Below, in pieces: positions 5,281 through 61,757 of a stretch of 64,000 nt of DNA (the first letter of the stretch is position 1; each line of letters begins with the position of its first letter). The position numbers and the translations under genes are program-made. The notes under the pieces were generated by a model. The model was not told where the DNA came from, did not search any database, and was given only the letters and a program-made list of their open reading frames with translations. The stretch is from Rhizophagus irregularis (taxonomy: Eukaryota; Glomeromycota; Glomeromycetes; Glomerales; Glomeraceae): the NCBI RefSeq assembly GCF_026210795.1, contig NC_089457.1, positions 434,001-498,000 on the forward strand. Reading direction: 5' to 3'.

Positions 5281-7579
5281 TTATTCCTCATTATCATCAT
5301 AATTATCGTCATTATTATCACCGTCATCCATACCTAATACATCATCTATATCATAATCATAGTCACCTTCTCCGGGTCTCTTGTTATTACCACTATCATC
5401 AACTTCATCATCTTCCGCATTATTTTCATCTGAATCATCCAATATATCTCTTGGAATATCGCCGATTTCACTAGTAATTGAATCATGCGATAAATTAACA
5501 AATTGATCAATCCATAGACTTTCGATTACTACACGGCAATTGTCTTCGGGTATTGTTTCGCCGCTTGTAGTTAATCTCTGAGTAGAAGCTTGCTCCTCAT
5601 TATATTCCTCATCATCATCTTCTGCAAAAGCTTCTGCAATACGTATATTGATCTCATCATCACTAAGACGAGTATTCTTTTTGATCAATTCCATAAAATC
5701 CAAGTTCAGTTTTTGAATTGGATTTCCAATACAAAATTAATTTGCACATGGATTCTAGTTTATCCACATTAAGATTTAAGCGACGTTTATGAAATAACCA
5801 TCCTAAAGTCAAAAATCCACGTTCGCAAGTTGCTGAGTTAGGACATATTGCAAATAGATAACTTGCAATTCTTGGCAGGACATCTGGTTCTGGTTCGGTA
5901 TTAATATATTTCCACCAATTCACGGGATTATCTTTAGCAAAACCGATATCTAGGTCAAATGGCTCTTGCTCATTAATATATTTCTGTATTTGATCACATA
6001 AAGTTTCAGCTTCGTAACGGTCGAAACCTAAATTTTTTCCGATTGAAGCTGCACATTTGATAATTCTCATGAGGGCGCATTTTTTAAGTGGCGCGTTTCT
6101 AAATCTGGGATCCATAAAAAAACAAGTAATATACTTATCATCATCGAATTCATCAAATCTTTCATTTATTACTTTGATACAATGACTTCGGAATGCAGGA
6201 TTTAATGATTTGGGTAACTTTTTTAATGTAGCTGCAAGTCTTGCCAAGCTCAGGAAACAATCTGCAAGTGTAGCTCTTCTCGATTCTAATGAAAGTACTG
6301 CTTTTCTTAGAGGATCCAGAACAAATCCAAGAACTCGTAAATTTGAAAAAAAATTTCTCGATTGAATAATCGGTTTTATTTTATCATTTGTTAGCACTTT
6401 ATCGTGATCGCTGGCCATTTCTTCTAGTGCTGATTCCAAATTTATTACTGAATTTACGGATTCACTAGCAGTAGTCCAGCGTGTCTTGCAATATAATTTT
6501 AATCCTCCTCCACTAATTCCTTTTTCTTTAATTATTTGAGCAAGTTTTGCATTAGCCTGATGAGAACTTCTAAAAAAGGTTGTCAAAATATTAACACGTT
6601 TTAATAAACGTTCCCCAAACTTCTCCTTGACGATGTCGCATGCAATTAAATTGATAGAATGTGCAACGCATCGCACATTTTCAATCTTTGGATGATTCTC
6701 ATGTATAATTTTTTGTGCATTACGAACATTGGCCGCATTATCGGAAACTACAGCACATATTCGATCTTCTCCAATACCTTCTATAACCTTTTCAATTACC
6801 GTAACTAGATATTCTGCAGTGTGCGAATTTTCAGACAAATCAGAAAGTTGATAAAGATATTCTTTACGCGACGGAGTCATTACAATGAAGTTCCAAATTG
6901 AACGATGTGTACCAGACGTCCAACCATCAAAGGCTAAATTATAAATTAATATTATATAGTAAGTAAGATTAAATAAAAATGACGTATGATAGCCTATTTA
7001 ATTTAACAAACCTAACGTTAAATTCGTTTCCTTTTCAAGCTCAGAATTAACTTTGAAGTTCACTTGAGCTAATTCACGTTCAAGTAGTTGATTTACTAAT
7101 ACTTCCCTTGTTGGTGTATTGTACCCAGCATTAAGCTCTTTTATAAAATTGATGAAAAAGGGATGTTCCACTACTCTAAACGCAATTCCGCACGCAATAA
7201 AAAATTTAACTAATGCACGATTAATTCGTGTACATCTTTGTTCGTTAAGCTCTGTTGAATCATGGTAATCATCCATGTTACTTTGACCTTCAGAGTATTT
7301 TCTTTTTTTGGATGACTTGGACTTATCTTGCCGTTCCATTACTTTAGTCATATACCTTCTAACAACTGCTGCTGGCGCATCTGGACAATGGTTTGAAAGA
7401 TGCTCTTCGAGCTTTGAAACTTCACCGCGTGACCATGTATTCTTACAGTACTTGCAGGAGGCGGCAAATTTGCCAGAACCAACAGCTTCTCCTTTATTAA
7501 TATCTTCCCAAATGCTATTAGGTGGCCGACCTCCTCTATTTTTCATTTTAATGGGTGAATCTTCTATGTGATCAGTCAT
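5281..7579 (-). pseudogene. hAT transposase, BED finger plus dimerisation domain (one frameshift)
   Basis: Exon 1 (7012-7579) encodes a BED-type zinc finger: IWEDINKGE, then CKYC and HLSNHC. A GT-AG intron (6934-7011) joins LTL to AFDGWTSGTHRSIWNF, the conserved hAT start of the RNase-H-like fold. Downstream are CAVVSDNAANVRNAQ, the CVAHSINLIACD block, KTRWTTASESV and the C-terminal hAT dimerisation block SATCERGFLTLGWLFHKRR. At about 5675 one extra A in a short run shifts the frame; the next frame continues through KNTRLSDDEINIRIAEAFAE to an acidic tail ending at 5281. Apart from that single indel the gene looks complete, so the copy is young, or the indel is an assembly error. Confidence 0.85.
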
Positions 7580-28198: not shown

Positions 28199-29340
28199 TT
28201 AACCAAGAGAAGATTCAACGATGATCTCGGTGACACGATAAGGATCAATGTTGGAAGCTGGTCTACGGTCTTCAAAGTAACCACGACCTTCAGCAGCAAC
28301 GTGTCTAGGAATTCTAATTGAAGCACCACGATTAGCAACACCAGATGAGAATGTCGAGATGTGACCAGTTTCATGACGTCCTGTAAGACGTTGATCATTA
28401 TCTTCACCATATACAGCAATGTGTTCTGCATGGCGTTTACCAATTCTTTCAATTGCTTCATTAATAGCTTTTATTCCACCTTCTTCTCTCATTGCTTTTG
28501 TTGAATAATTGGTGTGGCATCCTGCACCATTCCAATCTCCTTTGATTGGTTTGGGATGGAAGGTGACTACTACACCGAAATCTTCTGCTACACGTTGAAG
28601 AAGGTATCGAGCTACCCAAAGATGATCCCCCATATCAATACCCGTACAAGGACCAACTTGAAATTCCCATTGACCTAATTAATTATAATTAATTAAAAAT
28701 TTATTAGTCATTGTCATTATAGTATCTCTATCATTATATCATTATACATACCAGGCATGACTTCAGCATTGACACCGGAAATATTTACACCGGCATAAAG
28801 ACAAGCACGATAATGAGCTTCAACGATATCACGTCCAAAAGCTACATTGGCTCCAACAGAACAATAATAAGGACCTTGAGGACCTGGAAAACCACCTTTT
28901 GGCCATCCAAGTACTTGACCATCCGCATCTAATAAAGTATATTCTTGTTCAATACCAAACCAAGGTACGGCATCGGCGTGAGTTTCCATAATTTTAGCAC
29001 AAGAATGGCGATAATTTGTTCGGTTTGGAGTGCCATCATTGTTATAACATTCAGCGAGAACTATGATATTATCACCCCCACGAAAAGGATCTTTAAATAT
29101 CGAAGCAGGACGAAGTAAAATATCAGAGTCATGGCCCGGAGCTTGATTGGTTGAAGAACCATCAAAATTCCATTCTTTTAATTCAGATACATCGGTTGGT
29201 TTGAAATCGAGAGTGGTTGTTTTTCCACGTAATCCGCCATCTCCATCAATCCAAATGTATTCAGCTTGAATTTTACCACATTGATCAAGAGAAAGGTATT
29301 TGGCAAGAGTTTCAGTGTTGGATTTGTTAATAAAAGCCAT
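28199..29340 (-). CDS. Glutamine synthetase (eukaryotic GS type II)
   Basis: Makes glutamine from glutamate, ammonia and ATP in the cytosol, the main ammonium-assimilation step. Exons 28752-29340 and 28199-28674 join through a GTATGT...TTAG intron inside MPG-QWEF; 354 residues, the usual fungal length. The N-terminal beta-grasp domain contains [20 protein letters not shown]. The catalytic domain has [20 protein letters not shown], then [18 protein letters not shown] (ATP/glutamate loop) and [20 protein letters not shown], with the expected metal-binding Glu residues. It is intact. In mycorrhizal fungi GS feeds the arginine pool used for nitrogen transfer to the plant (family knowledge). Symbol by yeast analogy. 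Confidence 0.97.
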
Positions 29341-35984: not shown

Positions 35985-37900
35985 CTATGTTTTCCATGAT
36001 TGTGAAGAGCCTTTTGTTATAAGTGAAAGGATATTGTTCTTGCAACGTGTCATAGTTTTACGCAAAAGTTCATTTTTATCCAGTGTTTCATGTGTCTGTT
36101 GTATGTCACGTTGTTGGGATATAGAACACGAATGGCTTCTAACAGTATTCCTCTTGTCTTTTTTAGTGATGCCCAATTTAGCTTCAAGTATATTCATTTC
36201 ATAGCATTGCGGATTCCATATGTACTTCCTGAAAGCCTTGTGGAAATGTTTTATAATTCTAGTGACAACCTCATTGGTTACTTTTTTAGATAAGAAACGT
36301 CGAAGTTTTGTTATAATTGTATCTGAGATAAGCCCTCTAGTAAGTTCAATACGGTTACGTTCTTTAAGAAGAGGGAAAGCTTCGTCCTTATATTCAAAGA
36401 TAATACGTTTTAACTGTCCCTGTACTATCTTTGTTGAGGATGTGGATTTTTTAATAAATTTCATAATCTTGGATGTTATTTCTGACTCAACCTGCTGAAA
36501 ACCATCTTCATGACCTGGACATATAACAATATGTCAGATATCTTCATCATCATGTAAGCACATTGGACATTTGACTTGATTATACAGTTCGTTCCGTTTT
36601 CTAAGATTGTCTATGGTAGGTAATAAATTATTTGAACATTTTATAAAATGTATGAATTTATCATTGGTGGAGAATGATAAGCAATGTCCTTTGTTAAGGC
36701 TATTAACGTATTGCCAAAATAACCCCCAATGCCATCTTGAAGTTGTGAATGTTTCTTCAAAGTAAGAACTCCAGTATTTATTAAAAGACCATTGTACTTC
36801 TTCTAACGAATCAGCCACTAATCTAGTAAACGATTTAATATGTCTATCTATGCTAATATTATTCCAAACTGGGAGAAAGGTTAAAGGGAAGCTAAAGCTA
36901 CGGAGAAGTCTAATGTCTATAATTCTATCATTATTGTAGCTTGCTGCATCCCTCCCTTGTTTCGCAATTTCGTCTGCCATGTCGTTCCATCTATTGCCAG
37001 AATGTCCGCGGACTTTATGTAAGTTGAGCGTTAGTGATTTCGTTTTAATGAGATCATAAATGGTGAAAAGGATAATATAATTATTCATTTTTAAAAATTT
37101 CCTTCGATTGATCCTATACGAAGCATCAAGCATATGATTAATTCCTTCAATAGCTGCTTGACTATCTGTGTATATCGCCACTTCAGCATTGTTCAGTACT
37201 GCCAGCAAGGCAGTCATAATAGCCAAGAGCTCTGGTCACGTAGAAGATGGGTAATAGTTAACGCCACAAGAAAATGATAAATCGTGATCTTTAATAATCC
37301 AGCCGGCGCCCATGACTACCTCTCCTCTGGAATTTCTACAATTAAGATCCAGCGACCCATCAGTGTAAATTTGAAATATATTATTATTTTCTCTCTGCAA
37401 CACGCTATTGATATCGCACAATTCATGAGCAAGTAATGGTGAAGTGATAAAACGTGAGATTATGTTATGATCTATCAACGGAATGTCTACTGTGATTAAC
37501 TTTTGTTCATTATTGAAGGCCGCTGTTGAAGTGATTGTGCGTCTTTTGATCAGGTTGGTTGGTGTGATGATCCTAAAAGAGGCTTCTTCGATCTTCTTAG
37601 TAAGTACTTCTACTTTAATTACCGTAGCTTTGCTAAAGTGACCTCATCTAATGCATGTTCCTGTCGATGTTTGTCCATTCATGGATGAAGTACTACATCC
37701 TGCGCATTTTATAAGTAAGTCTGAGCCTTCATAGATGATCCAATGTTGGTACAGGAAAGTCATTACCGAATTCTTTTCCACGATTTTTCCCACTTCAGAG
37801 AGTCAGTTTGTATTAACTATGACCCATTCTTTCCTTCGTCTATCGAGAGATGGATGTTGCGGCGTGATAGGTTGATATCTAGGTGATGGAGTAAGGTCTA
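35985..37900 (-). pseudogene. LINE ORF2: RNase H domain and C-terminal Cys/His tail
   Basis: RNase H catalytic blocks are visible in order: FQIYTDGSLD, then after a TGA at 37236-37238 PELLAIMTALLAVL, EVAIYTDSQAAIEGIN and VRGHSGNRWNDMADEIAKQG. Farther on is VKCPMCLHDDED, interrupted by TGA (36534-36536), then HIVICPGHEDGF, a CPxC...H...C zinc-type tail, and a lysine/arginine-rich C-terminus ending at 35985. 37480-37900 is a badly decayed linker with fragments such as RYQPITPQHPSLDRRRKEW. Confidence 0.85.
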
Positions 37901-37922
37901 CAGTGATTCTTGATGTTTGGTC

Positions 37923-40157
37923 TTAATGTTGTATATTTCTGTTTAATGCGTTCGATAGCTGTTCGATAATGTACTTAGCAAAATATGGTAGAGGTCCAGC
38001 GGCGGATATTCCTAATGTCATTTTAATTTGATTAGGACGTAGGATATCTTGACCTTGGCCTCCTAAAAATTGTTTTATAGAATTCAATGAAATATAACGG
38101 TTGGATCTTTTAATAAAATTGTCCAATGCCTTTAGTCATTTTCTTTCTGACAAATCATGGTCCAAACGTGTATTATTGTGATTGTAGTTAGGTTGTAATA
38201 AGAAGTCTAAAATTGTTGTATCAAGTATATCCAAATGCCAATCGTCCACGTTTATTGCGTCAAAATTGAATAGTTGATCTTTCATATCTTTTAATATATT
38301 GAAATTAAAGTTGTTCGGTATGTTGACTTGCAATAATTTAGACGGCTCTATTGTGAGTATGCATCCTGCTAGTCCTGCACGAAGTTGCGCGTTTCTAAGT
38401 ATAATGCGTGTGCTAATACCATCCCACTCTTGAGAATTGATTCGAACAATGAAATCTGCATATTGCGCAGTCCTAAGGTGTTGTAAAAGCGAGGTCATTC
38501 CAACTAGGCCTTGATGAGTAAAGATATTATTGTTCGCCAATTTGGTTATGCTCATTTTTTGTTTCAGTAGCAAGATCATGCAATTGTGTAAGGTTCTGCA
38601 TTGGTTTTGGGTCAAAAAGGTACATTTCAACCAGTATTCTAGTCTTGCCATAAGTACCACGTTATTAACATAGACCACTTGTGATGCTATTATTTTCTTG
38701 TATTTCAATAAATTGACCATAGATTTGATTTCATTTTTAACACTTTGACTATATGTGATGAGCCTGCTTGGCTTCTAATATATACGCCTAGATATTTTGA
38801 TTCCTGAGAAGGTTTTTTTGCTACAACTAAATCGTTGTTTGTGCCCATTTTGATTGATTTGATTACGTCTTTGGGAGCATTCCACACCAGCAATTCTAAC
38901 TTATCTCCATTGATTCGAATATCATTCAGTTTGAAAAATGAATTAGAGATACCAATAATTGTTTTCATCTCCTTTTTATTACTGGCAATCCAAGCTGTAT
39001 CATCAGCATATGCGACAACTGATGTTTTTAATTCGTGTTGTGTCTTGTTGATATCGGTCCCTTCAGAAGAGGGCCATTGAGTAATCAATCTGTAACCTAC
39101 TTCTGGGATATCTTTGATTCTAGTTAGAAGTGGATCGTAAAAAATTCTCCAGATCAAGGGCGATATTGTCTCTCCTTGGTCTATACCGTCCCGCATAAAA
39201 GCCTTTGGATAAACCATATGCGGTTATAACTTGTAATTTTTGGTTTTTGAAAAGGTTAATTATAAAGTTGATTAGGTCCGTCGGGCATTTAATCCTTTCC
39301 AGGGCTTTGGTCAACGGTGTCATTCCTATGGAATCAAACGCTTTTGCCATATCCTGGAGGCAAATCCAAAGCTCTTTTTTAGCAGTGGTAGCATCATTAA
39401 TAATATTGTTTATGACATGTATTGGAATGTTTGTGGAGCCACCAGGAAGTCCGGCAAAATTCGGACCTGTGAGAATATTGTGTTGTACTAAAATGAGACT
39501 TAATCGTTTGTTAATTATTTTGACATACAATTTTCTGAGACATTCCAGTAACAGGATTGGACGAGTATTATTTAGTCTAAATTGCCAGTCTTTAGGCTTT
39601 GGTATTGGGAAGATCTGTGAAGTCACCCATTCATCAGGGAAAGTGGCCGTACGGTATATTACTGCTGCAAAGGAACGTAAACTAGTTTGCATCTTTGGTC
39701 AAGCTTTCTTGATTAACTTATATCCTATGTTCGATAAACCTGGAGTGGATTTATCGTTGCATTCTTTTAGCGTAGCGAACCATTCCTCTTGCATAGATTT
39801 TTCCATAATGTCTTTGTATATATTTTCATCTATTTCCGCAATTGGCGCATAATGAACAGCCCATTCCTCTGAGATATTATCGAATTCATGACTCCGATGT
39901 TTCTGTAATTCTACATATTGGTCGTCAGCTCTGTTCATTATATCCTCCGGTTCTGTAATGAGTTCTATTTTGCCAGTGACAGGATCTTCTTACACAAGCC
40001 TGTCAACTATTATTTTGTCTTTGTGCCTGTTAAGTAAGCTGTTTAACATCTTTGTTTGATTGTTTTTAATCATAGCAGCTCGTTTGTTGATGTAATTCTC
40101 AATTTGCTGATTTTGTGCTTTGGTGCAGTATTTTTTAATCAGTTCCATTGTTTGATT
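37923..40157 (-). pseudogene. LINE ORF2: reverse transcriptase domain
   Basis: RT motifs in order on the minus strand: [55 protein letters not shown] (first catalytic Asp), [20 protein letters not shown], then VVAYADDTAWIASNKKE (the YADD active site) and SKYLGVYI. A frame change near 39190 and TGA stops at 39699-39701 and 38136-38138 break it. The thumb region follows to 37923. It resembles RNase H-bearing LINE clades; the clade was not determined. Confidence 0.88.
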
Positions 40158-41324
40158 TCAAGCTGATTTTATATGTAGTGCCCAGGTTTGATTCCATATC
40201 GTTGGGACTTCTATTATTTTAAATTCCAGATTATATTTGTTAATATAAGTGATGTATCTGTTGAACCTATTCTTTAGATTAAGTTGCGTCAGTTGTTCCA
40301 TGAATTTATTACACGTCGAGTAAATTAACCGTAGTCTCCGTAGTTGAACATATAGGAATTTCGGTATAGTAATCGCTGATTTCTTACGTGCCATATTTTT
40401 CCCCACTTTGATTTTCTTGTTGGGAATCTTAGATTTTGCTGCTTTTAATAATATATCTTTAATAACCTGCCATATACTATTAATGTCATTCTTATTATGC
40501 AAATCTTGGTTGAGCAATATTTCTAAATTGCTATTAACAGGTTCATCATCAGTTTTGGTTGTGTACCCCTGCCATTTATCATTGTCCATTGATGCGTAAT
40601 CAAAAATTAATCTTTCGTTATTGTTCCTAGCGCACGTAGATGCTTTGTAATTCCTGATGATATCGCTAGTATTGCATATGCACGTGACTATGTTGTGATC
40701 ACTATTCGTCACAGCCTTCGCATCTCTTATTGAACTGTGTATAAGTTCGTTTGTCCAGTTTGGACTAAGCCAAATATAATCGATTCTTGTACTTGTTGGT
40801 TGCCGCTTATTGATACGTAAATTTTTTTCGGTTAATCGACTTCCCTATACGCGTCAATAAAATCATTATCCAGTAACGTGTTGAAAATTCGATTATTATT
40901 CCACTGCTTGGTGACATGTAATTTATCTTGATGTTTATTAACTATAGCATTGAAGTCACCTGCTATAATGAGATAATTATTATTATTATTATTTTTATAC
41001 TCATTTATTTGATCAGCGAGTTGAATTTAACAACTTCAACTCTTTTCTCGCATCGTCGATGGCATATAGACCTGTACTATACTAATCGAACATTGTTTAA
41101 AAATCAATTGGACATAAAGGATATTGTCTGTTGGATTAAGGATTTTTCCTATATGTTTCGCCCATTTGTCTTTCATGTATAACGCCATACCCTTTCCTTT
41201 TTTTTTAATCGGATCGCATTTGGACCATATTATTATATGACCTTCATTTAATTCGTTGTTGATGTATTTCCCATCCTTTGGTGATATATTAGTTTCATTA
41301 AGTCCAATAATATCAAAATCCTTC
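40158..41324 (-). pseudogene. LINE ORF2: endonuclease domain, main part
   Basis: AP-like endonuclease. After the CACTA-like insertion the frame resumes KDFDIIGLNETN with the catalytic Glu, continues WSKCDPIKKKGKGMALYMKD, then YLIIAGDFNAIVNKHQD (GDFN block) and RIDYIWLSPNW, and ends with TNSDHNIVTCI (SDH catalytic block). Two frame changes lie between these blocks. A linker region runs to 40158, where a TGA occurs. Confidence 0.85.
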
Positions 41325-41589
41325 AGACACAGGTCGAAAAGTGTCAAATCAGTCACCAATCAGTCACCAATCGGGTGCCTGATTGATGCCTGATTGATGC
41401 CTGATTTTACCAATCTGATACCAATCGGGCTGCCTGATTGATACCTAATTTCCGCCAAAATCCGACACCAATCAGTCACCTATCAGGCTGCCTGATTGTT
41501 GACAGATAGGTGACAGATTTATGACAGATTGGTAACCGATTGGTAACAGATTGGTGACCGATTGGTGACCGATTGGTGACGAATGATAG

Positions 41590-41775
41590 TTAATTTTATG
41601 GTCAATCGATGGTCAATTTATAGTCAATCAATGGTAAATTAATGGTCAATTAATGGTTAATTTATGGTTAATTTATGGTCAATTTATGGTCAATTTATGG
41701 TCAATTTTATGGTCAATTTTATGGTCAATTTATGGTCAATTTATAGGTCAATTTATGGTCAAATAACCAATTGGT
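41590..41775. repeat. ATGGTCAATTT short tandem repeat
   Basis: About fourteen head-to-tail variants of a 12-14 bp unit (ATGGTCAATTTT and similar). It lies just inside the left subterminal zone of the CACTA-like element. Confidence 0.9.
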
Positions 41776-42559
41776 AAAATTTTCTAGTAGTAATCATATA
41801 ACCAATAATAAAATTTATTACAGCACATAATAATATTTATTAAAATTATAAACTCTACAAATAATAAAATACATAGTGTCTTTATTTATTTATATTAATA
41901 AGTAGTGTAAATAAACATAAATAATTAATATTTAAAATAAAAACCATTCATAATCTTTTTTAAAAACAGATGTTAGTATATAACTGATAAAGTTAGTAAT
42001 ATTTAATAAATAGTAAAGAGTAAATATAAAAAGTTAGTAACCGTAGTAAAGTACAAATAAATAATAAATACAGTTAGTATTATGAAGAGTTTGATAAAAT
42101 ATATAAAAAAAAGAAAAATACATGATGATGTTAGTAAAAATAAAGAAATATAACATTACATTAGTAATATTAAAAAGTGATAAAGTTAATATTATAAAAT
42201 AAAATATAGTCAGTACAATAAATTTAATGACAAAAATACAATAATTAATATATCTGTAAAATGTAAAGAGAATAAGAAAAAAACAAACAGAAAAGAAAGA
42301 GCGTGTATATTTTTTGAAAAATAAACAAACTCGAGTTTGGTAATTTATATGCATGTTAAGATCAGGTCACGTGCATAAAGATCAGACCGAATTTTAATTG
42401 GTTAATAATAGATAAATATCGCATCTCCAGAAAAAATTTCAATTTTTACCGTCTTTCACTTTTAAATTTGTATTAAAATTTACCTTAGACTTTCGGAGAC
42501 CTAAATTTTTTTAAAATTGTTTAATTTATTTAATGTAAATTTAATAAAAAGTATATTGT

Positions 42560-44460
42560 TTTTTAATTAATGGTACGAATTCTAAAAAATTCTCTATTAA
42601 AAATATCTCATACAAATTCTTAGAAAATTTCAAAAAAAAATTCTCTATTTCCTATACGAATCTTAGAAAATCTCAAAAAAAAAAAAAATTTCCATCAAAA
42701 ACACCCTAAAAAATTTTACAAAAAAGAAATCTCTATCAATCAAAAATATCCCATATGAACCCTTCCTATACGAACTCTTAGAAAATCTCTTAAAAAATTT
42801 TCTATCAAGGAATCTTATACGAATTCTTCCTATACAAACTCTTAGAAAATCTTTATCAAAATATTCCATACGAACTCTTCCCATACAAACACGTAGAAAT
42901 CTCAAAAAAAAAAAAACTCTATTTATCAAAAATATCCTATACGAATCTTAGGAAATTTCTCAAAAAAAATTTTCTATCAGATATTCCATACGAACCCTTC
43001 CCATATGAACTCTTAGAAAATGCTCAAAAAAATTTTCTATCAGATATCCCATACGAACCCTTCCCATATGAACTCTTAGAAAATCTCTTAAAAAATTTTC
43101 TATCAAAGAATCTTATACGAATTCTTCCTATACAACTCTTAGAAAATCTTTATCAAAATATTCCATATGAACTCTTCCCATACAAACACGTAGAAATCTC
43201 AAAAAAAAAAAATCTCTATTTATCAAAAATATCCTATATGAATCATAGGAAATTTCTCAAAAAAAATTTTCTATCAGATATCCCATACGAACCCTTCCCA
43301 TACGACCTCTTAGAAAATCTCTTAAAAAAATTTTCTATCAAAGAATCTTATACGAATTCTTCCCATATGAATCTACGAATCTAATGTATAGTTAAAATAA
43401 ATTGGTCGAAATAAGAAAGTGAAAAAGAGAGAAATATATTACCATATTTGAAATTAACAGAGAAAAAAAATTTTTTTAATTTTTTTTTTATCAATCCTTT
43501 TTTTATATGTATTGTATTAAGATCACGAAAAATTTTCCGATTTACGTATCTTTACATGCTTCTTAAAATCTCAAAAAAAATTTTCTATCGTATATCCCAT
43601 ACGAACCCTTCCCATACGAACTCTTAAAATCTCTTAAAAATTTTCTAATGTTAATCTCATACGAATTCTTTCTATACAAAGCTCTTAGAAAATCTTTATC
43701 GAAATATTATATATTTCTTTCATCTGAACGCGTAGAAATGCCGATCTTTACATAGTTCTTAGAAAATCTCAAAAAAATTTTCTATCAGATATCATACGGC
43801 ACGCCCATACGACTTAAAATCTCTTAAAAAATTTTCTCAAAAGAATCAAACAAATGCTCATACAAACTCGAAAATCTTTATCAAAATATTCCATATGAAC
43901 TCTTTCCATACAAACACGTAGAAATCTCAAAAAAAAAAAAAATCTCTATTTATCAAAATATCCTATACGAATCTTAGGAAATTTCTCAAAAAAATTTTCT
44001 ATCAGATATCCCATATGAACCCTTCCCATATAAACTCTTAGAAAATCTCTTAAAAAAATTTTCTATCAGATATCCCATACGAACCCTTCCCATATGAACT
44101 CTTAGAAAAACTCTTAAAATATTTTCTATTAGATATCCCATACGAACCCTTCCCATACGACCTCTTAGAAAATCTCTTAAAAAAATTTTCTCTCAGATAT
44201 CCCATACGAACTCTTTCCATACGAAAATCTCTTAAAAAATTTTCTATCAAAGAATCTCATACAAATTCTTCCTATACAAACTCTTAGAAAATCTTTCAAA
44301 ATATTCCATACGAACTCTTCCCATACAAATGCGTAGAAATCAAAAAAAAAAAAAAAAAAAAAAATCTCTATTTATCAAAAATATCCTATACAAATCTTAG
44401 GAAATTTCTGAAAAAAAATTTTCTATCAGATATCTCATACGAACCCTTCCCCATAGCAAC
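42560..44460. repeat. Complex satellite in the CACTA-like element
   Basis: Repeats of segments such as ATCCCATACGAACCCTTCCC, CTCTTAGAAAATCTC and AAAAAATTTTCTATCA recur in a higher-order pattern of roughly 130-300 bp, with a short non-repetitive break at 43380-43560. Frames read from it (on minus, YGKGSYGIS-type) are artefacts of the repeat. Confidence 0.85.
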
Positions 44461-45062
44461 ACTACAAAAAAGAAAAAAATATATTTAAAAAAAAAAGAAA
44501 AACCTTCTCCCTTGCTCAGCCCTCCCTTACCTCAATTCTCAAAGTCTGGCAATTTTTTTCGTCCATAAAAAAGAATTTTTTTTTTCAAATCGGATAATGA
44601 TCTAGATTACGGATCACATCTCACTCAATTCAGAGTGACACAAATTGCAGGAAAAGAAGTTGATCAGCAATATTGTTAACCAATTGCTACCCGATTGCTA
44701 ACTATTTGACTTATCAATTTACCGACTACGAACAGGTTTTCGGACAAATAATACGATCCAGAAATAATTTTTTTTCTCAATATTTACAATTAAAAAATTT
44801 GTAAATCGGAATGCTGTTTATCTTTATTAAATGAATGTTTTTTTAAGCCAATCAGTCACTAATTGGCTATTCATTTGATAGCCGATTTTCATATTAAAGA
44901 ATAAATAAAAATCCTAAATTCTTGAAAACTATCAGATATTGCAAACCAATCAGTAACCAATCAGTTACCAATCAGTCACCAATCGGTTATGTCAGATTGG
45001 TGACCGATTGGTGACTGATTGTCAATAGTAAATTTAATATATTTATCAAAACAAACTCAAAA

Positions 45063-45750
45063 TAGAGATGCGATCCAGATGAAATTTTACAATCCGTGAT
45101 CTGCACAGATCAATCCGGATTATCATAGGATTAAATTTGGATAATCCAGATTAACTTCAAATTTTGGGTATCTCGGCATCCAACGATCGTATAGAGATGC
45201 ACTATTGCTCATTCGAATCGTTGCATTGAGACGATTCGAATGAGCTATAGTGCATCTCTGTACGATCACTGGATGCCGAGATAATTGGCAAAACGTGAAA
45301 CATCGGCATTTTTATTTTACGATCATGCAAAATTTTACGTTTTGCCGAATATCTCGGCATCTAGTGATCGTACAGAGATACACAATAGCTCATTCGAATC
45401 GTCTAAGTGCAACGATTCGAATGAGCTATTGTGCATCCCTGTACGATCGTTGGATGCCGAGATATTCGGCAAACCGTCAAAAATCGGTAGTATCGTAAAT
45501 AAAAAATGCTGATTTTTGACGGTTTGCCGAATATCTCGGCATCCAGTGATCGTACAGAGATGCACAATAGCTCATTCAAATCGTCTCATTACGACGATTC
45601 GAATGAGCTATTGTGCATCTCTGTACGATCATTGGATGCTGTTTCGGATTAAAACGGATATCCTTAATCCATCCGGATGCATCCATTATCCGTTCGGATC
45701 AGATGGATAGGCGGATGATCCGAATTTTCGGATTTCGGATCGCATCTCTA
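45063..45750. mobile_element. hAT-type MITE, TAGAGATGCGATCC ends, internal hairpin array
   Basis: Inverted ends TAGAGATGCGATCC and GGATCGCATCTCTA with 8-bp target duplication ACTCAAAA at 45055-45062 and 45751-45758. The interior is a series of near-perfect palindromes of 150-200 bp around ATCTCGGCATCCAGTGATCG and CATTCGAATCGTCTCA. It is inserted in one of the subterminal repeats of the CACTA-like element. Confidence 0.93.
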
Positions 45751-46218
45751 ACTCAAAAGCCCAGATTAAGCATAACTTGACTTGCTTTATAAAGCTATAA
45801 TACTAATTTTTTGACTTTAATATAAAAATCAGATATTGTAAACCAATCAGTAACCAATCAGTCGCTAATCGGTTATGTCAGATTGGTGACCGATTGGTGA
45901 CTGATTGTCAATAATAAACTTAATATATTTATCAAAATAAACTCAAAAGTTCAGATTAAGTATAATTTAACTTGCTTTATAAGACTATAATGCTAATTTT
46001 TTAACTTTAATATGTAAATCAAATATTGTAAACAAATCGGCAATCAATCGGTCACCAATCGGTCATATGACCGATTGGTGACTGATTGACAATCTATGCC
46101 TGGTTGGTGACCGATAGGTAACAGATTGAAAGAATCGGTCACTAATAGGTAACCAATCAGTCACCAATCAGTCATATGACCGATTGATGACTGATTTTTC
46201 ATATTTCGACCTGTGAGA

Positions 46219-46660
46219 TCGTCTATTAAACTATATAGTTTGTCAGGATTTGATTTCAACCCATTAATATTATGAGTGGCAAAAGAAATAGTGGGAAATT
46301 TTGCCTTTTGTAGTTGGTTTTGTTGCTCATTAATAAATCTGTTTCGTTTCATGTTCAGTAAATCATTTATATCTTGCATAACCTGATCATTGATATCTTG
46401 TAAATGTTGTTGTTCAGGTGTATCATTTTTATTGTATGCATTTGGGTATTCTCTTGTGCTGTTATTAATTATTTTATCTTGTATTGAATCCTCGTGAGAT
46501 TTTCCATTGTTTTGAGCTTGTGTTATGTAATTATGATTCCTATACTGTGAGCCTTGATGTAAGTGAGAGGAAAAATTCAGATCTCGGCTATTGATCCGCC
46601 TCTCATTCCTTGATACAACTGTTCTGGAAAAGAGATAAGAGGTGAGTAAGCATCTTTTAG
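46219..46660 (-). pseudogene. LINE ORF2: N-terminal part of the endonuclease
   Basis: The open frame from about 46660 overlaps the ORF1 end and reads SRNERRINSRDLNFSSHLHQ, NDQVMQDINDLLNMKRNRF, then FPTISFATHNINGLKSNPDK, the first endonuclease block with catalytic Asn, up to SLIDDL where the CACTA-like element interrupts. It is classified as a pseudogene because its continuation is broken. Confidence 0.8.
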
Positions 46661-48345
46661 CAGAGACTCATCACTTCATCCCAGTCCCCTTGGCGATTTT
46701 GATTATTAGGTGTATTACTATGTGTGCTTGAAGTATCAGAGGAAGTATTATCCGAAATGATTATGTTGTCTTTGTTGTTGTTCATAGAGCAGTGAGATTT
46801 AAGGCCTAGCGGGATTTTGTTAGATCCACTGGCGCAAGATGGTATATTATCTAAGTTTTTTTTGGTGATGTTGTGATTTTTCAAATTATGATTATTCTTG
46901 AATCTCTGATTCCGGTGGGTATGTCTACCAAGGGTTATGTGTTGACCTTGTATATGAGGTTTATTATTCACCTTCTCTTTGGAATCATCATCATGGTTTG
47001 CCACTGTTTCGTGTGAGTCTACTAATTGTGTTTGATTGGATTTGTCAGGTGTGTGATTGCTTTTGTCAAGTTGTAACTTCTTTAATTTACTTATGGCGCG
47101 GTCCCTTTGTGGCCAGTTGTAACCTAATGGGTATCCTTTGATATTGAAATCGCTAAAGTGATAATTCTTGTCACAAGCATTAAAGAGGTCAGCCTCATTT
47201 TGAAATTCCACAATGATCTTGTCTGGGCTCTGCTTGAATGCGCTTTTGGGGTTAAAAGGAGCAGTAATTTCCAATGCTTTCGCCACTGTATGCTCTTTTC
47301 TAAAACCTATAAATTCACCTCTATACTTCTTTCTTTCATCAAAATCACTAGCTTTGAAATGCGCAGGGCTAAGACGGTAAATATAGTTTTCAATATCAAT
47401 GGACCATACATTCTTCAACAGCTGTCTTGCGTATTCGTCCTTTACTGTGAAGTAAACAGTCATAGTATTCTCTGACCTGTATTTAAAACTTTTGTCCGTT
47501 ATGAAAAAAGGGCTACCATGCAGTAAGCGTCTAATGCTACTTTCGATGCTAGTTCTATCTATATTGTTAGGTACTTCCAAAATTTTGAACTCTCTACTAG
47601 AAATTCGTTGACCATGTAGCGTATAGTACTTCTTTTCTTTCATTTTAAGGTTGCTGTTCTTGAAAAAATGATTAAACAATCGTACCATGCGTCTTATCCC
47701 ACCAATTGCGTAGTTCTTTATAATAATGTGTTTATCAGTCGCATTGTATTCTACTCCAGCGTAGTCTGAGAAGTTATGTACGTTAAGTTCGATGAAGGCA
47801 AGTTTATCATCAAACGAGTCATAGAAGTTTATATCATTAATTGGAATGTAAGCATCGTAAGTTGCAACTTTTTCTTCTATAAACGTGTGCATTGATATTT
47901 GGTTGCGTGTTGAATGTTTTTTTATATCCATGAGAACTTTTTTTAGTTTCTTAATTTTTGAAGGTGGATACCAATTGTGATCTGTCTTATCATCGATTTT
48001 TGTACATTTTTGATTGTCAGCTTTTGTTTTAATGGCTGATTCAAATTCTTGGATTGATGATGCGGCTTTTGATGCATCTTGATCTTTAAGATCCATTTCT
48101 TCCTTATAATTGGAGATTGAGTTGTCCATTATATTATCTTCGGCTTCCGTCATAATTACATCTTGGTTAATCAGCCACAGTTCGTTCCAAATATTATCCA
48201 CTTCTTCACTACCTTTCGATGAAAGCGGAGATGGAAAAATGTATGATGAGGGCGTATCTATGTTATTCTGCACTGTTGAAATGTCTATTAATATTTCTGA
48301 TTGATTGTTAAAGTCGAGTGCAGGAATGGCAATGATGTCCTCCAT
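46657..48345 (-). CDS. LINE ORF1-type protein (562 aa)
   Basis: The longest open frame in the window, ending just where ORF2 begins. The acidic N-terminus (MEDIIAIPALDFNN) gives way to a basic central region with YTLHGQRISSREFKILEVPN and TDKSFKYRSENTMTVYFTVK, which look like an RNA-recognition-type beta sheet, then a long Asn/His/Ser-rich tail ending DWDEVMSLC. No CCHC knuckle was found. LINE ORF1 proteins bind the element RNA and assemble the particle; here that role is inferred from position and basic character. The frame is open above the chosen ATG for about 20 codons. Confidence 0.7.
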   Translation of the reverse strand: MEDIIAIPALDFNNQSEILIDISTVQNNIDTPSSYIFPSPLSSKGSEEVDNIWNELWLINQDVIMTEAEDNIMDNSISNYKEEMDLKDQDASKAASSIQEFESAIKTKADNQKCTKIDDKTDHNWYPPSKIKKLKKVLMDIKKHSTRNQISMHTFIEEKVATYDAYIPINDINFYDSFDDKLAFIELNVHNFSDYAGVEYNATDKHIIIKNYAIGGIRRMVRLFNHFFKNSNLKMKEKKYYTLHGQRISSREFKILEVPNNIDRTSIESSIRRLLHGSPFFITDKSFKYRSENTMTVYFTVKDEYARQLLKNVWSIDIENYIYRLSPAHFKASDFDERKKYRGEFIGFRKEHTVAKALEITAPFNPKSAFKQSPDKIIVEFQNEADLFNACDKNYHFSDFNIKGYPLGYNWPQRDRAISKLKKLQLDKSNHTPDKSNQTQLVDSHETVANHDDDSKEKVNNKPHIQGQHITLGRHTHRNQRFKNNHNLKNHNITKKNLDNIPSCASGSNKIPLGLKSHCSMNNNKDNIIISDNTSSDTSSTHSNTPNNQNRQGDWDEVMSLC

Positions 48346-48415
48346 ATCAGATACGTGAGTATTCTGATTTCTGTTTTTTCCATAATTCGTTGGTATCTTT
48401 GACGAAACTTTGCTA

Positions 48416-48991
48416 TTATGTTTTTAAGTCCAATTCCTCCTTATCGTTGTATTGTTGTTGAACAAAAGTTACGTCTGTTGAATTAAGAGGTTGAAGTTCC
48501 TTATTTTTTGATTTCCGTTTCTTTTTATTCAGTGGTACAATCTCTGTTGTTTCTTTATTGTTATCACGTGATTGATAGGACGTAGTATCGGGATGTCGAG
48601 AATCCTTAGAGTTGTCGATATTGGAACCCGTAATTTTGTCTGTTATATCATTGGTTAAATGTTGTATACCATCTTGGTATGAGATATTATTATTAGAAGT
48701 TGGTACAAGATTCCTAGATCCAGTCGGTAAATTGTCATTGTTTTGTTGTTGTGCTGAAAAACGCGTGAAAATATTATTTTGTTCTTCTTGCACTAAAAAT
48801 GTTTGTACTCTTTTTATCCACAATGCTACCGCGATTTTAATATTTCCAAGCCTTTCCGCGAGCAAATATTTATCGTGTAGGATAAGTGAACCAGCTAGTT
48901 TTGCTAAAATTTTGTATTTTTCATCGTCTATAAAGCTATCATTAATAAATGAAGAACCTTTAAAAATAAAAGACAATTTCGTAAAGTCCAT
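48416..48991 (-). CDS. LINE 5' frame (191 aa), possibly the ORF1 N-terminus
   Basis: The first frame of the LINE. MDFTKLSFIFKGSSFINDSF leads to a helical region (YKILAKLAGSLILHDKYLLA) and ends in Ser/Asn-rich sequence with a KKKRKSKNKE nuclear-type patch. It ends 70 bp before the 562-residue frame in a different phase. Either it is a separate small ORF or ORF1 was once continuous and has a frameshift; the spacing does not decide. Confidence 0.6.
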   Translation of the reverse strand: MDFTKLSFIFKGSSFINDSFIDDEKYKILAKLAGSLILHDKYLLAERLGNIKIAVALWIKRVQTFLVQEEQNNIFTRFSAQQQNNDNLPTGSRNLVPTSNNNISYQDGIQHLTNDITDKITGSNIDNSKDSRHPDTTSYQSRDNNKETTEIVPLNKKKRKSKNKELQPLNSTDVTFVQQQYNDKEELDLKT

Positions 48992-53825: not shown

Positions 53826-55073
53826 TCAAGCATCTCTAATCAAAAACTTCTCAATTGCATAATGATATTGTGTAGGAGTTCTAATCAATACACCCAATTC
53901 TTCAGCAGCCTTAATTGCCCAGCTACCATCAAGCAAAAAGCTTCTTGCCAAAAATACCAAATCAGCATAACCACTTGACACAATATTATTAGCAAGTTTA
54001 GGATCTCTAATCAAACCAACAGCACCCGTATTAATATTAGCATTTTTCTTAATTTCTTCGGCAAAAGAAACTTGATAAGCAGTCATAGGATGAAGCTTTT
54101 GTTCAGGTGTGTTACCACCGGAGGAAACATCAATTAAATCAACACCAAGATCCTTTAATAGCTCAGATAATTTAACAGATTGCTTGATTTCCCAACTATT
54201 ACCTTCGCCATTATCAACCCAATCTGTAGCAGAAATTCTAACAAATAAGGGTTTATCTTTTGACCAAACTTCGCGAACTTTTTTTGTAGTCTCTAACCCA
54301 TATCTAACACGATTTTCGAATGATCCACCATATTGATCTGTACGTTTATTTGAAATAGGAGAGAAAAATTCGTGAGCAAGATATCCGTGAGCAAAATGTA
54401 GTTCTATTATATCAAATCCTGCTTTTTCAGCGCGTTTAGCAGCAGCAACATAAGCTTCTTCAATTTCATAAATTTGTTCTACAGTTAATTCTTTTGGATA
54501 CGCGTGATTTACGTCCCAAGGAATAGGAGAAGGCCCAACAACATCATTTGGCCATCCACCATGTTTTTCCGGAGATAAAAGTCCTTTGGAAAGAATATAA
54601 GGTGTTGCTGTGGAAGCTTTTCTACCAGCATGTGCTAATTGTATACCAATTTTAACTCCTTGAGAATGGACAAAATCTACAATTCTTTTTAATGGAGCAA
54701 TTTGTTCATCTTTCCATAATCCTGAATCATTAGGAGATATTCTACCTTCAGCCGTTACAGCTGTAGCTTCTATAATAATTAATCCTACCCCTCTAAGAGC
54801 AAATTGGCCTAAATGTACTAAATGCCAGTCCGTTAACATACCATCCTGTGCGCTGTATGTACACATTGGTGATACTACTATTCTATTTGGTAATATTGTA
54901 TCACGAATTTTTAGCGGTGTAAATAATGGTGGAAATTCTGTAATCTCTCCATTAGATTGGGTGATTTTACGTTTGATTAAAGATAATGGCGTACCCGGTG
55001 GAGGGTCTTGAATTGGTGTAAAATATGGCACGTTTGGAGCTCCGATATTTTCGAGTGTAATTTCAGTGGTCAT
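53826..55073 (-). CDS. Old-yellow-enzyme family flavin oxidoreductase (YqjM-like NADPH dehydrogenase)
   Basis: FMN-dependent ene-reductase that uses NADPH to reduce electrophilic C=C bonds; probably cytosolic. Single exon, 415 residues. The first 45 residues are a poorly conserved extension. The TIM-barrel starts PLFTPLKIRDTILPNRIVVS, then PMCTYSAQDGMLTDWHL, where Cys and Tyr fit the YqjM-type substrate pocket. KIGIQLAHAGRKA binds the flavin. IIELHFAHGYLAHEFFSP followed by NKRTDQYGGS is the family signature; the catalytic H-x-x-H reads HFAH. The C-terminal FMN phosphate site is NTGAVGLI and ADLVFLARSFLLD. No disabling mutation. Physiological substrate unknown. Confidence 0.95.
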   Translation of the reverse strand: MTTEITLENIGAPNVPYFTPIQDPPPGTPLSLIKRKITQSNGEITEFPPLFTPLKIRDTILPNRIVVSPMCTYSAQDGMLTDWHLVHLGQFALRGVGLIIIEATAVTAEGRISPNDSGLWKDEQIAPLKRIVDFVHSQGVKIGIQLAHAGRKASTATPYILSKGLLSPEKHGGWPNDVVGPSPIPWDVNHAYPKELTVEQIYEIEEAYVAAAKRAEKAGFDIIELHFAHGYLAHEFFSPISNKRTDQYGGSFENRVRYGLETTKKVREVWSKDKPLFVRISATDWVDNGEGNSWEIKQSVKLSELLKDLGVDLIDVSSGGNTPEQKLHPMTAYQVSFAEEIKKNANINTGAVGLIRDPKLANNIVSSGYADLVFLARSFLLDGSWAIKAAEELGVLIRTPTQYHYAIEKFLIRDA

Positions 55074-59770: not shown

Positions 59771-60976
59771 ATGAAATTCAATATTTTCCTTCTATTAGTA
59801 ACTATTTTTGCTGCCGTCACTTTAGCATCGCCACTTGAATCTAGTAAATATCTTACAATAAATCAATATTTATTATTGTTTTGAAAAAAAAAAAATATTA
59901 ATTGTTAATATTCGTTTTGTTTTATAGGAGGATGTAACTATCATTACTATTATTATTAATTTATTGTTCTTTGAAAAAAATATTAACTATTTAATTTTCG
60001 TTTTATTTATTTATTATTTATTTTAAATAATAAATAGGCTGTAAGTATCATTATTATAATTAATATTTACAGTATTGTATTATTTTTAAATATATTGTTA
60101 ATTTTCGTTTTTTATTTATTTATTTAAATAATAAATAGGTTTTTGTAAGTATTTTTATAATTAATACTCATTATTATTTTTGGAAAAAAAAAAAATATTG
60201 TTAATTTCGTTTTTTCTTATTTTATTTTAATAATATATAGGTGGTACGTATCATTTATTATTATTATAACCATTATTTTTTGGAAAAAAAAAATGTTAAT
60301 TGTTAATTTTCGTTTTTTATTCATTTGATAATAAATAGTGGGAGGTAGATGTAAGTATCATTTGTCATTATTATTACAATTAATTATTTATCGTTTTGAA
60401 AATATTAATATACTATTTATTGATTATTGCTTTTTTTTTTGTATATAGCCTGTAAGTATCATTTATTTTATTTTATGTTTTTTTCGGAGATATATTAACT
60501 GTTAATTTCATTTTTTTAATTTTTTTTTATGTTAATAAATAGGCCGTAAGTATCATTTATCATTATTATTAATATAACTATTATGTTTGAAAAAAAAATT
60601 ATTAATTTTCGTTTTTTATTTTATTTTAAATAAATAGTTGCAAGTAAGTATCATTTGTCGTTATTATAACAACTAAATATTTATTCTTTTGAAAATATTA
60701 ACATATTATTTATTGATGCTTTAAATAATTAAAAAGTCTGTAAGTATCATTCATCATTATTATAATTAATTATGAAAATTTGATTATTGATTTATTTTGT
60801 TTTAAATAATAAATAGGCTGCGATCAGAAAGTTGAACAATGACATCTTATTGATCATTGTTAAATAATAAATAGTCCGTAAGTATCATTCATCATTATTA
60901 TAATTATTTATTCTTTTTTGATTATTGATTTATTTGTTTTAAATAATAAATAGGCTGTAATCCGAAGGTTTACTAA
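59771..60976 (+). CDS. Secreted Cys-rich peptide gene built from micro-exons
   Basis: Exon 1 (59771-59843) encodes a 20-residue signal peptide (MKFNIFLLLVTIFAAVTLAS) and four more residues, leaving one base. Then ten spliced exons: 59928-59933, 60038-60040, 60139-60144, 60241-60243, 60339-60350, 60449-60451, 60543-60545, 60638-60643, 60737-60739 and the terminal exon 60817-60842 (stop TGA). Internal ones are 6, 3, 6, 3, 12, 3, 3, 6 and 3 nt, all phase 1, adding RG, C, CF, C, VGGR, S, C, LA and I; the terminal exon adds CCDQKVEQ. Introns are 77-104 bp with GTAAGTATCATT starts and AAATAATAAATAG ends. An extra micro-exon (60875-60877) and a second terminal exon (60954-60976) follow. About 47 residues with six Cys after the signal. 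No known family; mycorrhizal SP7-like effectors and schistosome micro-exon genes are loose analogies. Individual splicing is predicted, not observed. Confidence 0.72.
60954..60976 (+). other. Alternative terminal exon of the micro-exon gene
   Basis: After a GTAAGT...AAATAATAAATAG intron this exon reads, in the same phase as the first terminal exon, (C/R)CNPKVY and then TAA. The first terminal exon gives CCDQKVEQ and TGA. Base-level similarity (GCTG-x-x-ATC-x-GAA) shows they are duplicates. Use of this exon requires skipping 60817-60842 and entry from any upstream phase-1 exon or from 60875-60877. Confidence 0.6.
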
Positions 60977-61150
60977 CAACATTTTATTATCACTCATAAG
61001 TTACTGAATCACTATAATTACCAAGCAATGGTTATAATTAATTTCAATAATTAATTTAATTATTTTATATATTTTAGTAAACTAGCAATAAATTTTTATT
61101 GGTTCAATCTTTTCAGCCTTCTTATTAAAATATATGACCAAACTATTATA

Positions 61151-61347
61151 CAGTGACACCTCTATAAGTGCACCCTCTATAAGTGCACGCACTATATAAA
61201 TTCTCTTTAAGTGCACGGTGGGTCTGGTCCCAACTTATAAGAGCTCTTAATATTTTACTCTCTATAAATGCACACCCTCTCTAAGTGCACATTCTACTAT
61301 TTTTTTACTATGGTCCCAAGAGGGGTGCACTTAGAGAGGTGTCACTG
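61151..61347. mobile_element. Tc1/mariner-type MITE, CAGTGACACCTCTATAAGTG ends
   Basis: Left CAGTGACACCTCTATAAGTG and right, inverted, CAGTGACACCTCTCTAAGTG, with TA on both flanks. The interior repeats the TAAGTGCAC motif several times. 197 bp, non-coding. Confidence 0.93.
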
Positions 61348-61757
61348 TAACTAACTTTATTAGTTTATTATAATCATCATTAACAAGTTCATCTGGTTTT
61401 TTTTTCCTTTACAAAAAAATAAATATAACTTAAATTTTAGTAAATCCTTTATATCATGTCATTTTCTACATATTATATAATTATTTATTTAAAATAATAA
61501 ATGCTAATATTCTGAAAAAAATCTGATCTGTTTTATATTTATAGATCTAATTTGAGACAAATCAAATCAAATTATATAATTTATGAATTTAAATCAAAAA
61601 TTTGATCTAGTTCAAATTGAACCAAATTAAATTTGATTTAAAAAGCCTTTAAATAAAATGTTATAAAGTTAAAATATTGTAAATAGTTAAGTTAATTGTG
61701 ATAATAGTTATACATTTATACTTTATAAAGTACTTGATTTGTGATGTAGTAATTTTC

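Follow-up and report, generated by a model that had tools for sequence, protein, structure and literature searches.

The schistosome micro-exon genes (MEGs) encode secreted proteins, with most of the coding sequence lying after a signal-peptide exon in symmetric tiny exons of about 6-36 nt, and these symmetric microexons are a source of many isoforms. A gene of the fungus Rhizophagus irregularis resembles them in having a signal-peptide-like first exon and then mostly symmetric tiny coding exons, but it belongs to another kingdom, the exons of its family are mostly of 3 nt, and the comparison is one of architecture, not of sequence. The gene (W, contig label C29) lies in the window, a stretch of 64,000 nt analysed here as a whole (C29:434001-498000), in a genome of 146.7 Mb and 32 contigs; an R. 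irregularis assembly with 32 chromosomes is described in PMC10234402. Paralogs are named by contig label (C32, C21, C6, C14 and C5), and coordinates within W are those of the window. It appears, from these predicted genes, that this root-symbiont fungus builds small secreted Cys-rich peptides from coding sequence divided among exons that are only one to a few codons long.

The bicycle genes of aphids are described in PMC9168663 as a large effector-like family with many small internal exons (on average about 17 exons per gene), rapid protein divergence and CYC motifs, nearly all of the internal exons beginning at codon position 2. Up to its first terminal exon, the internal exons of W also start at codon position 2, a likeness without shown homology, but none of the six spliced array products contains CYC, and the R. 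irregularis family has products of 47-77 aa and many single-codon exons. The SP7-like effectors, to which PMC11333574 ascribes hydrophilic imperfect repeats, an NLS in several cases and a conserved intron before the first repeat, belong to the same fungus and, like W, have a signal peptide (in W judged by eye) and paralogs spread over chromosomes, whereas W has six Cys, no such repeats (by eye) and ten introns before its first stop. Kinship with SP7, which the first-pass annotation had brought up, is unsupported and was rejected.

Exons of 1 nt, as reported for plant APC11 and VPS55 (PMC8831610) and for Fusarium CYP621A (PMC12940212), show that even such exons can be spliced, fungi included, but these are single tiny exons within genes, whereas R. 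irregularis has arrays. Likewise the microexon switch of Trichoderma Xlr2, a functional fungal microexon according to PMC11121469, concerns a single regulated exon of a gene for a transcription factor. No published description of micro-exon arrays in Rhizophagus was found among the matches listed from the openly licensed literature, partly the best of longer lists, so that this negative is not proof of absence.

Anatomy of the window gene

The array was delimited by a splice finder that applies dynamic programming (DP) to donor, acceptor and branch-like scores, with no reading-frame term (frame-blind). The chain found on W has 11 introns and a score of 54.5; none of 200 first-order Markov resamplings of this stretch scored above 14.0 or had more than 4 introns, which puts the array beyond chance. 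No other chain of at least 4 introns was found on either strand of the window. The eleven intron-like units originally reported, of 76-104 bp, hold, their lengths by the coordinates given below being 84, 104, 98, 96, 95, 98, 91, 92, 93, 77 and 76 bp. Two features of W needed manual placement: DP displaces the first donor to 59798 because the real donor at 59844 (GTAAATATC) is weak, and it skips terminal exon 1, thereby placing 60740-60874 as one 135-nt intron. The donor GTACGTATCATT, formerly picked by reference to the array consensus, is also the choice of DP and, judged from its protein, of the public model RIR_jg26108.t1 (P0001). As a genome-wide probe the bare acceptor motif AAATAATAAATAG was rejected, being no better than its reversed control (247 matches versus 261); the pattern TAAATAG, 3-15 nt, GTAAGTATCATT gave 11 matches versus 0 for the control, nine of them in W and its C32 copy.

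Exon 1 (59771..59843, 73 nt, plus strand as are all exons of W; ATG, MKFNIFLLLVTIFAAVTLASPLES) is signal-peptide-like by eye and ends in phase 1, that is, after codon position 1; first exons like it occur at 6 other loci of the same genome. Nine internal microexons follow, of 6, 3, 6, 3, 12, 3, 3, 6 and 3 nt, all nine divisible by three and all placed by frame-blind DP: GAGGAT (59928..59933), GCT (60038..60040, identical in C32), GTTTTT (60139..60144, GTTGGT in C32), GTG (60241..60243, with donor GTACGTATC), TGGGAGGTAGAT (60339..60350), CCT (60449..60451), GCC (60543..60545), TTGCAA (60638..60643) and TCT (60737..60739), the last two lacking in C32. The GCT microexon forms a Cys codon with the T that precedes it. 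Terminal exon 1 (60817..60842) ends in ..CCDQKVEQ and a TGA stop, and every junction up to it falls after codon position 1. The predicted spliced product has 47 aa and six Cys (MKFNIFLLLVTIFAAVTLASPLESRGCCFCVGGRSCLAICCDQKVEQ), and the splice sites, the frame, the six Cys codons and the stop of W are all intact.

On the 3' side of terminal exon 1, frame-blind DP places one more microexon, TCC (60875..60877), which is a probable duplicate of the TCT unit and, with terminal exon 2 (60954..60976, ..CNPKVY, stop TAA), a possible alternative 3' end. The ten in-frame microexons counted in the first-pass annotation are indeed in frame, but TCC lies past terminal exon 1 and nine are internal to the 47-aa product. 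The duplicated last unit (60740-60976) thus offers two possible 3' ends, CCDQKVEQ or CCNPKVY / RCNPKVY; terminal exon 2 is probably the older of them, since the intron before it matches the last C32 intron (0.90).

Directly downstream of W lies a MITE-like imperfect inverted repeat (61124-61374) with 52-nt arms, 77% alike, and GTGCAC-rich repeats between them. Elsewhere in the window, open reading frames named by eye are transposase-like and retroelement-like (5663-7579 and 36534-48991, minus strand), glutamine synthetase-like (28717-29340) and flavin oxidoreductase-like (53826-55073).

The six-Cys array family and its public gene models

W had been taken for a lone gene, but it is one of a family and part of a wider habit of the genome. 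Searches of the genome by DNA, pattern and exon 1 found five array paralogs, C32 (L040), C21 (L041), C6 (L043), C14 (L044) and C5 (L047), making six array loci with W, and a lone exon 1 without an array on C4 (L042, C4:4175622). Two further candidates found by DNA or pattern, L060 (C11) and L048 (C20), were rejected, as they are not arrays. Across the six loci, 56 of 58 internal exon lengths placed by DP are divisible by three, compared with 20 of 64 introns, a count that takes in the displaced first intron of W, its 135-nt intron and the last C5 intron, which runs into an interruption. The corresponding P of 1.4e-24 is valid for independent exons, which the exons of one family are not: W and C32 are for the most part colinear copies, and the same is true of C14 and C5. 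Counted by eye, the family has 60 internal exons, of which 57 are divisible by three, the exceptions being the 5- and 20-nt exons of C6 and an 8-nt exon of C14 beyond its DP chain. GC content is 0.48 in the exons and 0.154 in the introns of the six loci.

The predicted family products have 47-77 aa, with six Cys in four of the six (W, C21, C6 and C14), and 28 of 31 Cys codons in the family are split by an exon junction, in keeping with the original remark that Cys residues are created across junctions. In C21, 13 of 16 internal exons are of 3 nt, and the stop TAA is completed across the last junction. The C32 product has four Cys and has lost the CC end, and that of C5 has three Cys before the gene is interrupted, after six microexons, by an open stretch that is retroelement-like by eye (L047 from about 1860); with C32 lacking the last CC and C5 cut short, some family members are degenerate. 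Around L040 2408-2430, where three units and the CC end are missing, reading of C32 would continue into the equivalent of the W 3' UTR; a palindromic insert lies in the second intron of C5. Pfam has no family for W, C6 or C14 and yields one sub-cut-off match only for C21, and a PDB sequence search with the C6-derived public protein P0002 found no match at E up to 10. The matches of two peptide searches, the second with one wrong C21 residue in its query, were five R. irregularis proteins and an unnamed JGI protein.

Over 53 junctions of the six-Cys family, from a list that left out the final TAA of C21, the natural order gives no stops, whereas reversal gives 4, omission of one exon 4 and omission of two 3. 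Within single genes the absence of stops is not significant under exon-order shuffling (chance of no stop 0.20 to 1.0), and such shuffles give weak to moderate support for the number of Cys (P 0.012 to 0.74).

The comparison of W with C32 shows coding-type evolution. Between W and C32, exon 1 is identical at 66 of 72 bases and the introns differ at 34 of 535 (501 identical), but the microexons differ at 11 of 37 (one of the 37 being in a unit missing from C32), an excess over the introns (P=3.9e-5) that is hard to explain if these bases are intronic. None of the 12 Cys-codon bases differs, versus 11 of the 25 other microexon bases (P=0.0066), so that the four shared Cys codons are unchanged, while six of the eight other codons compared have changed, in five cases with a different residue as the outcome. 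Such a pattern is what one would expect of a disulfide scaffold under diversifying selection. For each of the eight C32 introns, the most similar intron at any other locus is one of W, and the order is conserved; seen from W, introns 3 and 7 are marginally closer to a different C32 intron. In C5, five of the six introns pair colinearly with those of C14, and the remaining one was too long for the comparison. The first microexon is of 6 nt in C14 and 9 nt in C5, whereas the intron gaps take many lengths. W intron 11 matches C32 intron 8 (0.90), so that C32 lacks the three preceding units. Resemblances within a gene, of W intron 9 to W intron 6 (0.80) and of C21 intron 9 to C21 intron 10 (0.79), are consistent with unit duplication. 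Intron similarity was rejected as a dating tool, its means being 0.64 within a gene and 0.63 between genes, and only recent copies are therefore resolvable.

Public gene models, which were compared as proteins only with exon use inferred from the protein, agree in part with these chains. All 68 aa of RIR_jg32637.t1 (P0002) correspond to the frame-blind C6 exon chain with its 14 internal exons, and that chain was made before the public protein was compared. P0001 contains ASPLESRGC-VGGRSCLAICCDQK, which requires seven of the nine microexons of W, and is without GCT and GTTTTT and has other, implausible ends. According to PMC6123716, the public annotation came from AUGUSTUS trained on R. irregularis with TopHat intron hints; short-read hints can hardly be expected to span such exons, and the models are therefore likely ab initio choices. 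P0001 and P0002 are independent gene-finder support, which is different from RNA evidence, and the gene finder itself favours frame-keeping paths. The models P0003 and P0004 (named RhiirA1 and RhiirC2) and P0006 come from other isolates; the first two take exon 1 and the first microexon of C14- and C32-like genes and then run into the intron, as P0006 does for C21 after two microexons.

Triplet arrays, many of them beside kinase genes

Similarity matches also pointed to arrays of tens of near-identical introns split by single triplets on other contigs (L045, L046, L050-L054, L057, L059 and L061-L068), the largest chain having 57 introns (L059). They are a different gene class from the six-Cys family, and are perhaps the larger finding. 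The fixed intron start following ATAG and 0-14 free bases is found 780 times genome-wide, with a spacer of exactly 3 nt in 768 cases and a 0-nt spacer (AG joined to GTAAG) in the L045 array; reversed-pattern controls gave 0. In a tblastn search with P0007, a protein that matches PF07714 and is 97% identical to the L045/L056 exon, 9 of the 15 places examined have a kinase coding match next to the array; none was found within the fetched stretch at the other 6 (L054, L059, L062, L066, L067 and L068). In six arrays the introns are 93-96% identical and the triplets 33-46%, which suggests codon diversification against homogenised introns.

Stops formed across junctions were counted in 17 stretches from 15 places (L050/L051 being one place and L046/L057 another), for chains of at least 5 introns (at least 6 in the first count) with at least 4 three-nt exons, and for runs of at least 3 triplets; L055 and L058 (no chain past the filter), L056 (overlapping L045) and L049 fall outside this test. 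The 501 bases shared by L046 and L057 were removed from the 470-triplet count and kept in the 475-triplet, neighbour-pair and junction-type counts and in that of the first nine stretches. Joined in order, the 470 triplets (434 junctions) form no stop in phase 1 against 14.4 expected, and 0 of 5000 within-run shuffles are as low, whereas there are 20 stops in reverse order, 11 when one triplet is skipped and 15 when two are skipped. Distinct neighbour pairs form stops in 0 of 202 cases (8.1 expected, P=3.6e-5), the second batch alone of an earlier, slightly overlapping set of 475 triplets gives P=0.0042, and the kinase-matching stretches by themselves (262 triplets) have 0 stops against 7.5 expected, with 0 of 3000 shuffles as low. 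The missing junctions are only T|AA, T|AG and T|GA; T|AT occurs 20 times against 23.0 expected. It is hard to see how stops could be avoided between bases about 100 nt apart in the DNA if these bases do not come together in mRNA, and the exons of the triplet arrays seem, on this pattern, to be joined consecutively and translated. Phase 2 has 75 stops. Phase 0 is also stop-free (for the first nine stretches, base composition predicts 9.6 stops), so that stop counts by themselves do not distinguish phase 1 from it in the triplet arrays; phase 1 is preferred in view of the effect of order and of the upstream exons in L045 and L050, which end, by eye, after codon position 1.

Splicing, alternatives and role

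The array of W could be an intronic tandem repeat, with exon 1 joined to the terminal exon and the microexons never included. Tandem Repeats Finder does call part of it a 102-bp repeat, and the gene models of other isolates stop inside the array. However, divisibility by three is found only in the exons, the microexons show an excess of change around fixed Cys codons, and stops are avoided in the consecutive order and not in other orders, all of which need joined and translated exons. This makes an intronic repeat very unlikely. Recursive splicing, with the units as ratchet points of one long intron and the 3-nt exons as leftovers, might be read into the 0-nt spacer of the L045 array, but it is barely credible given that nearly all genome-wide spacers are exactly 3 nt and that a 3-nt exon does not rebuild a donor at the ligated end.

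The symmetric microexons might serve mainly as an isoform source through regulated skipping, the full product being one of many and the terminal exons alternative ends, for which the symmetry of all nine internal exons, the P0001 model with its two absent microexons and the last unit duplicated with a different tail can be cited; yet skipping one exon makes stops in both the six-Cys family (4) and the triplet arrays (11), versus 0 in order, and this alternative is left with a minor share of the probability. Slimmer still is the chance that W is a decaying copy, no longer expressed, with active members elsewhere: C32 and C5 are damaged and C4:4175622 is a lone exon 1, but W itself is intact from its splice sites to its stop.

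Very probably, then, as far as genomic comparison can tell, W is a functional micro-exon gene with full inclusion of its 3-12 nt exons, giving a secreted-type six-Cys peptide. The original proposal of a phase-1 micro-exon gene with a secreted-type leader and six Cys holds, and is strengthened by the five array-bearing paralogs, by the public model that reproduces the frame-blind splice of one of them, by the coding-type evolution relative to C32 and by the avoidance of stops in other arrays. The short introns (76-104 nt), with their strong, near-identical splice sites, would be removed singly by intron definition, and every exon of 3-12 nt would be kept in the mRNA, so that all microexons of W would be included in the transcript. 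The steric problem posed by a 3-nt exon may not arise if the introns on its two sides are recognised in turn, the second only after removal of the first. Since the exons are whole codons and the junctions fall after codon position 1, the mRNA would encode a signal peptide and a short mature peptide with six Cys, which may be secreted and disulfide-bonded. The signal-peptide-like leader, the six Cys and the fast change between fixed Cys suggest a biotic interface, and our guess is that the peptide is secreted and acts at the interface with plant or microbe.

Gain or loss of a unit, that is, one intron and one small exon, would add or remove whole codons, as when a GCT exon after an exon ending in T supplies exactly one extra Cys, and this frame safety would make each unit a portable codon cassette. 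A tentative extension, to which we give somewhat less than an even chance, is that tandem near-identical introns with one codon each form a genome-wide cassette system, in which duplication, loss or exchange of units edits one residue without a frameshift, in the small secreted Cys peptides and in many kinase-linked arrays alike.

Should splicing follow the arrays as read here, long runs of 3-nt exons would be spliced routinely in this fungus, a matter of interest for exon recognition by the spliceosome, and proteins would have an easy way to diversify by single codons. Besides the six-Cys family, the genome holds hundreds of predicted one-codon exons, many beside kinase genes, that ordinary annotation tends to miss. 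Such exons are hard to place by ordinary read mapping, and the current annotation of this major plant symbiont may therefore lack secreted peptides and kinase N-termini or give them wrongly. Three public kinase models, P0014 (from R. diaphanus), P0044 and P0046, have low-complexity Gly/Ile/Leu/Met N-termini like the phase-0 readings of the arrays, and are perhaps misannotated.
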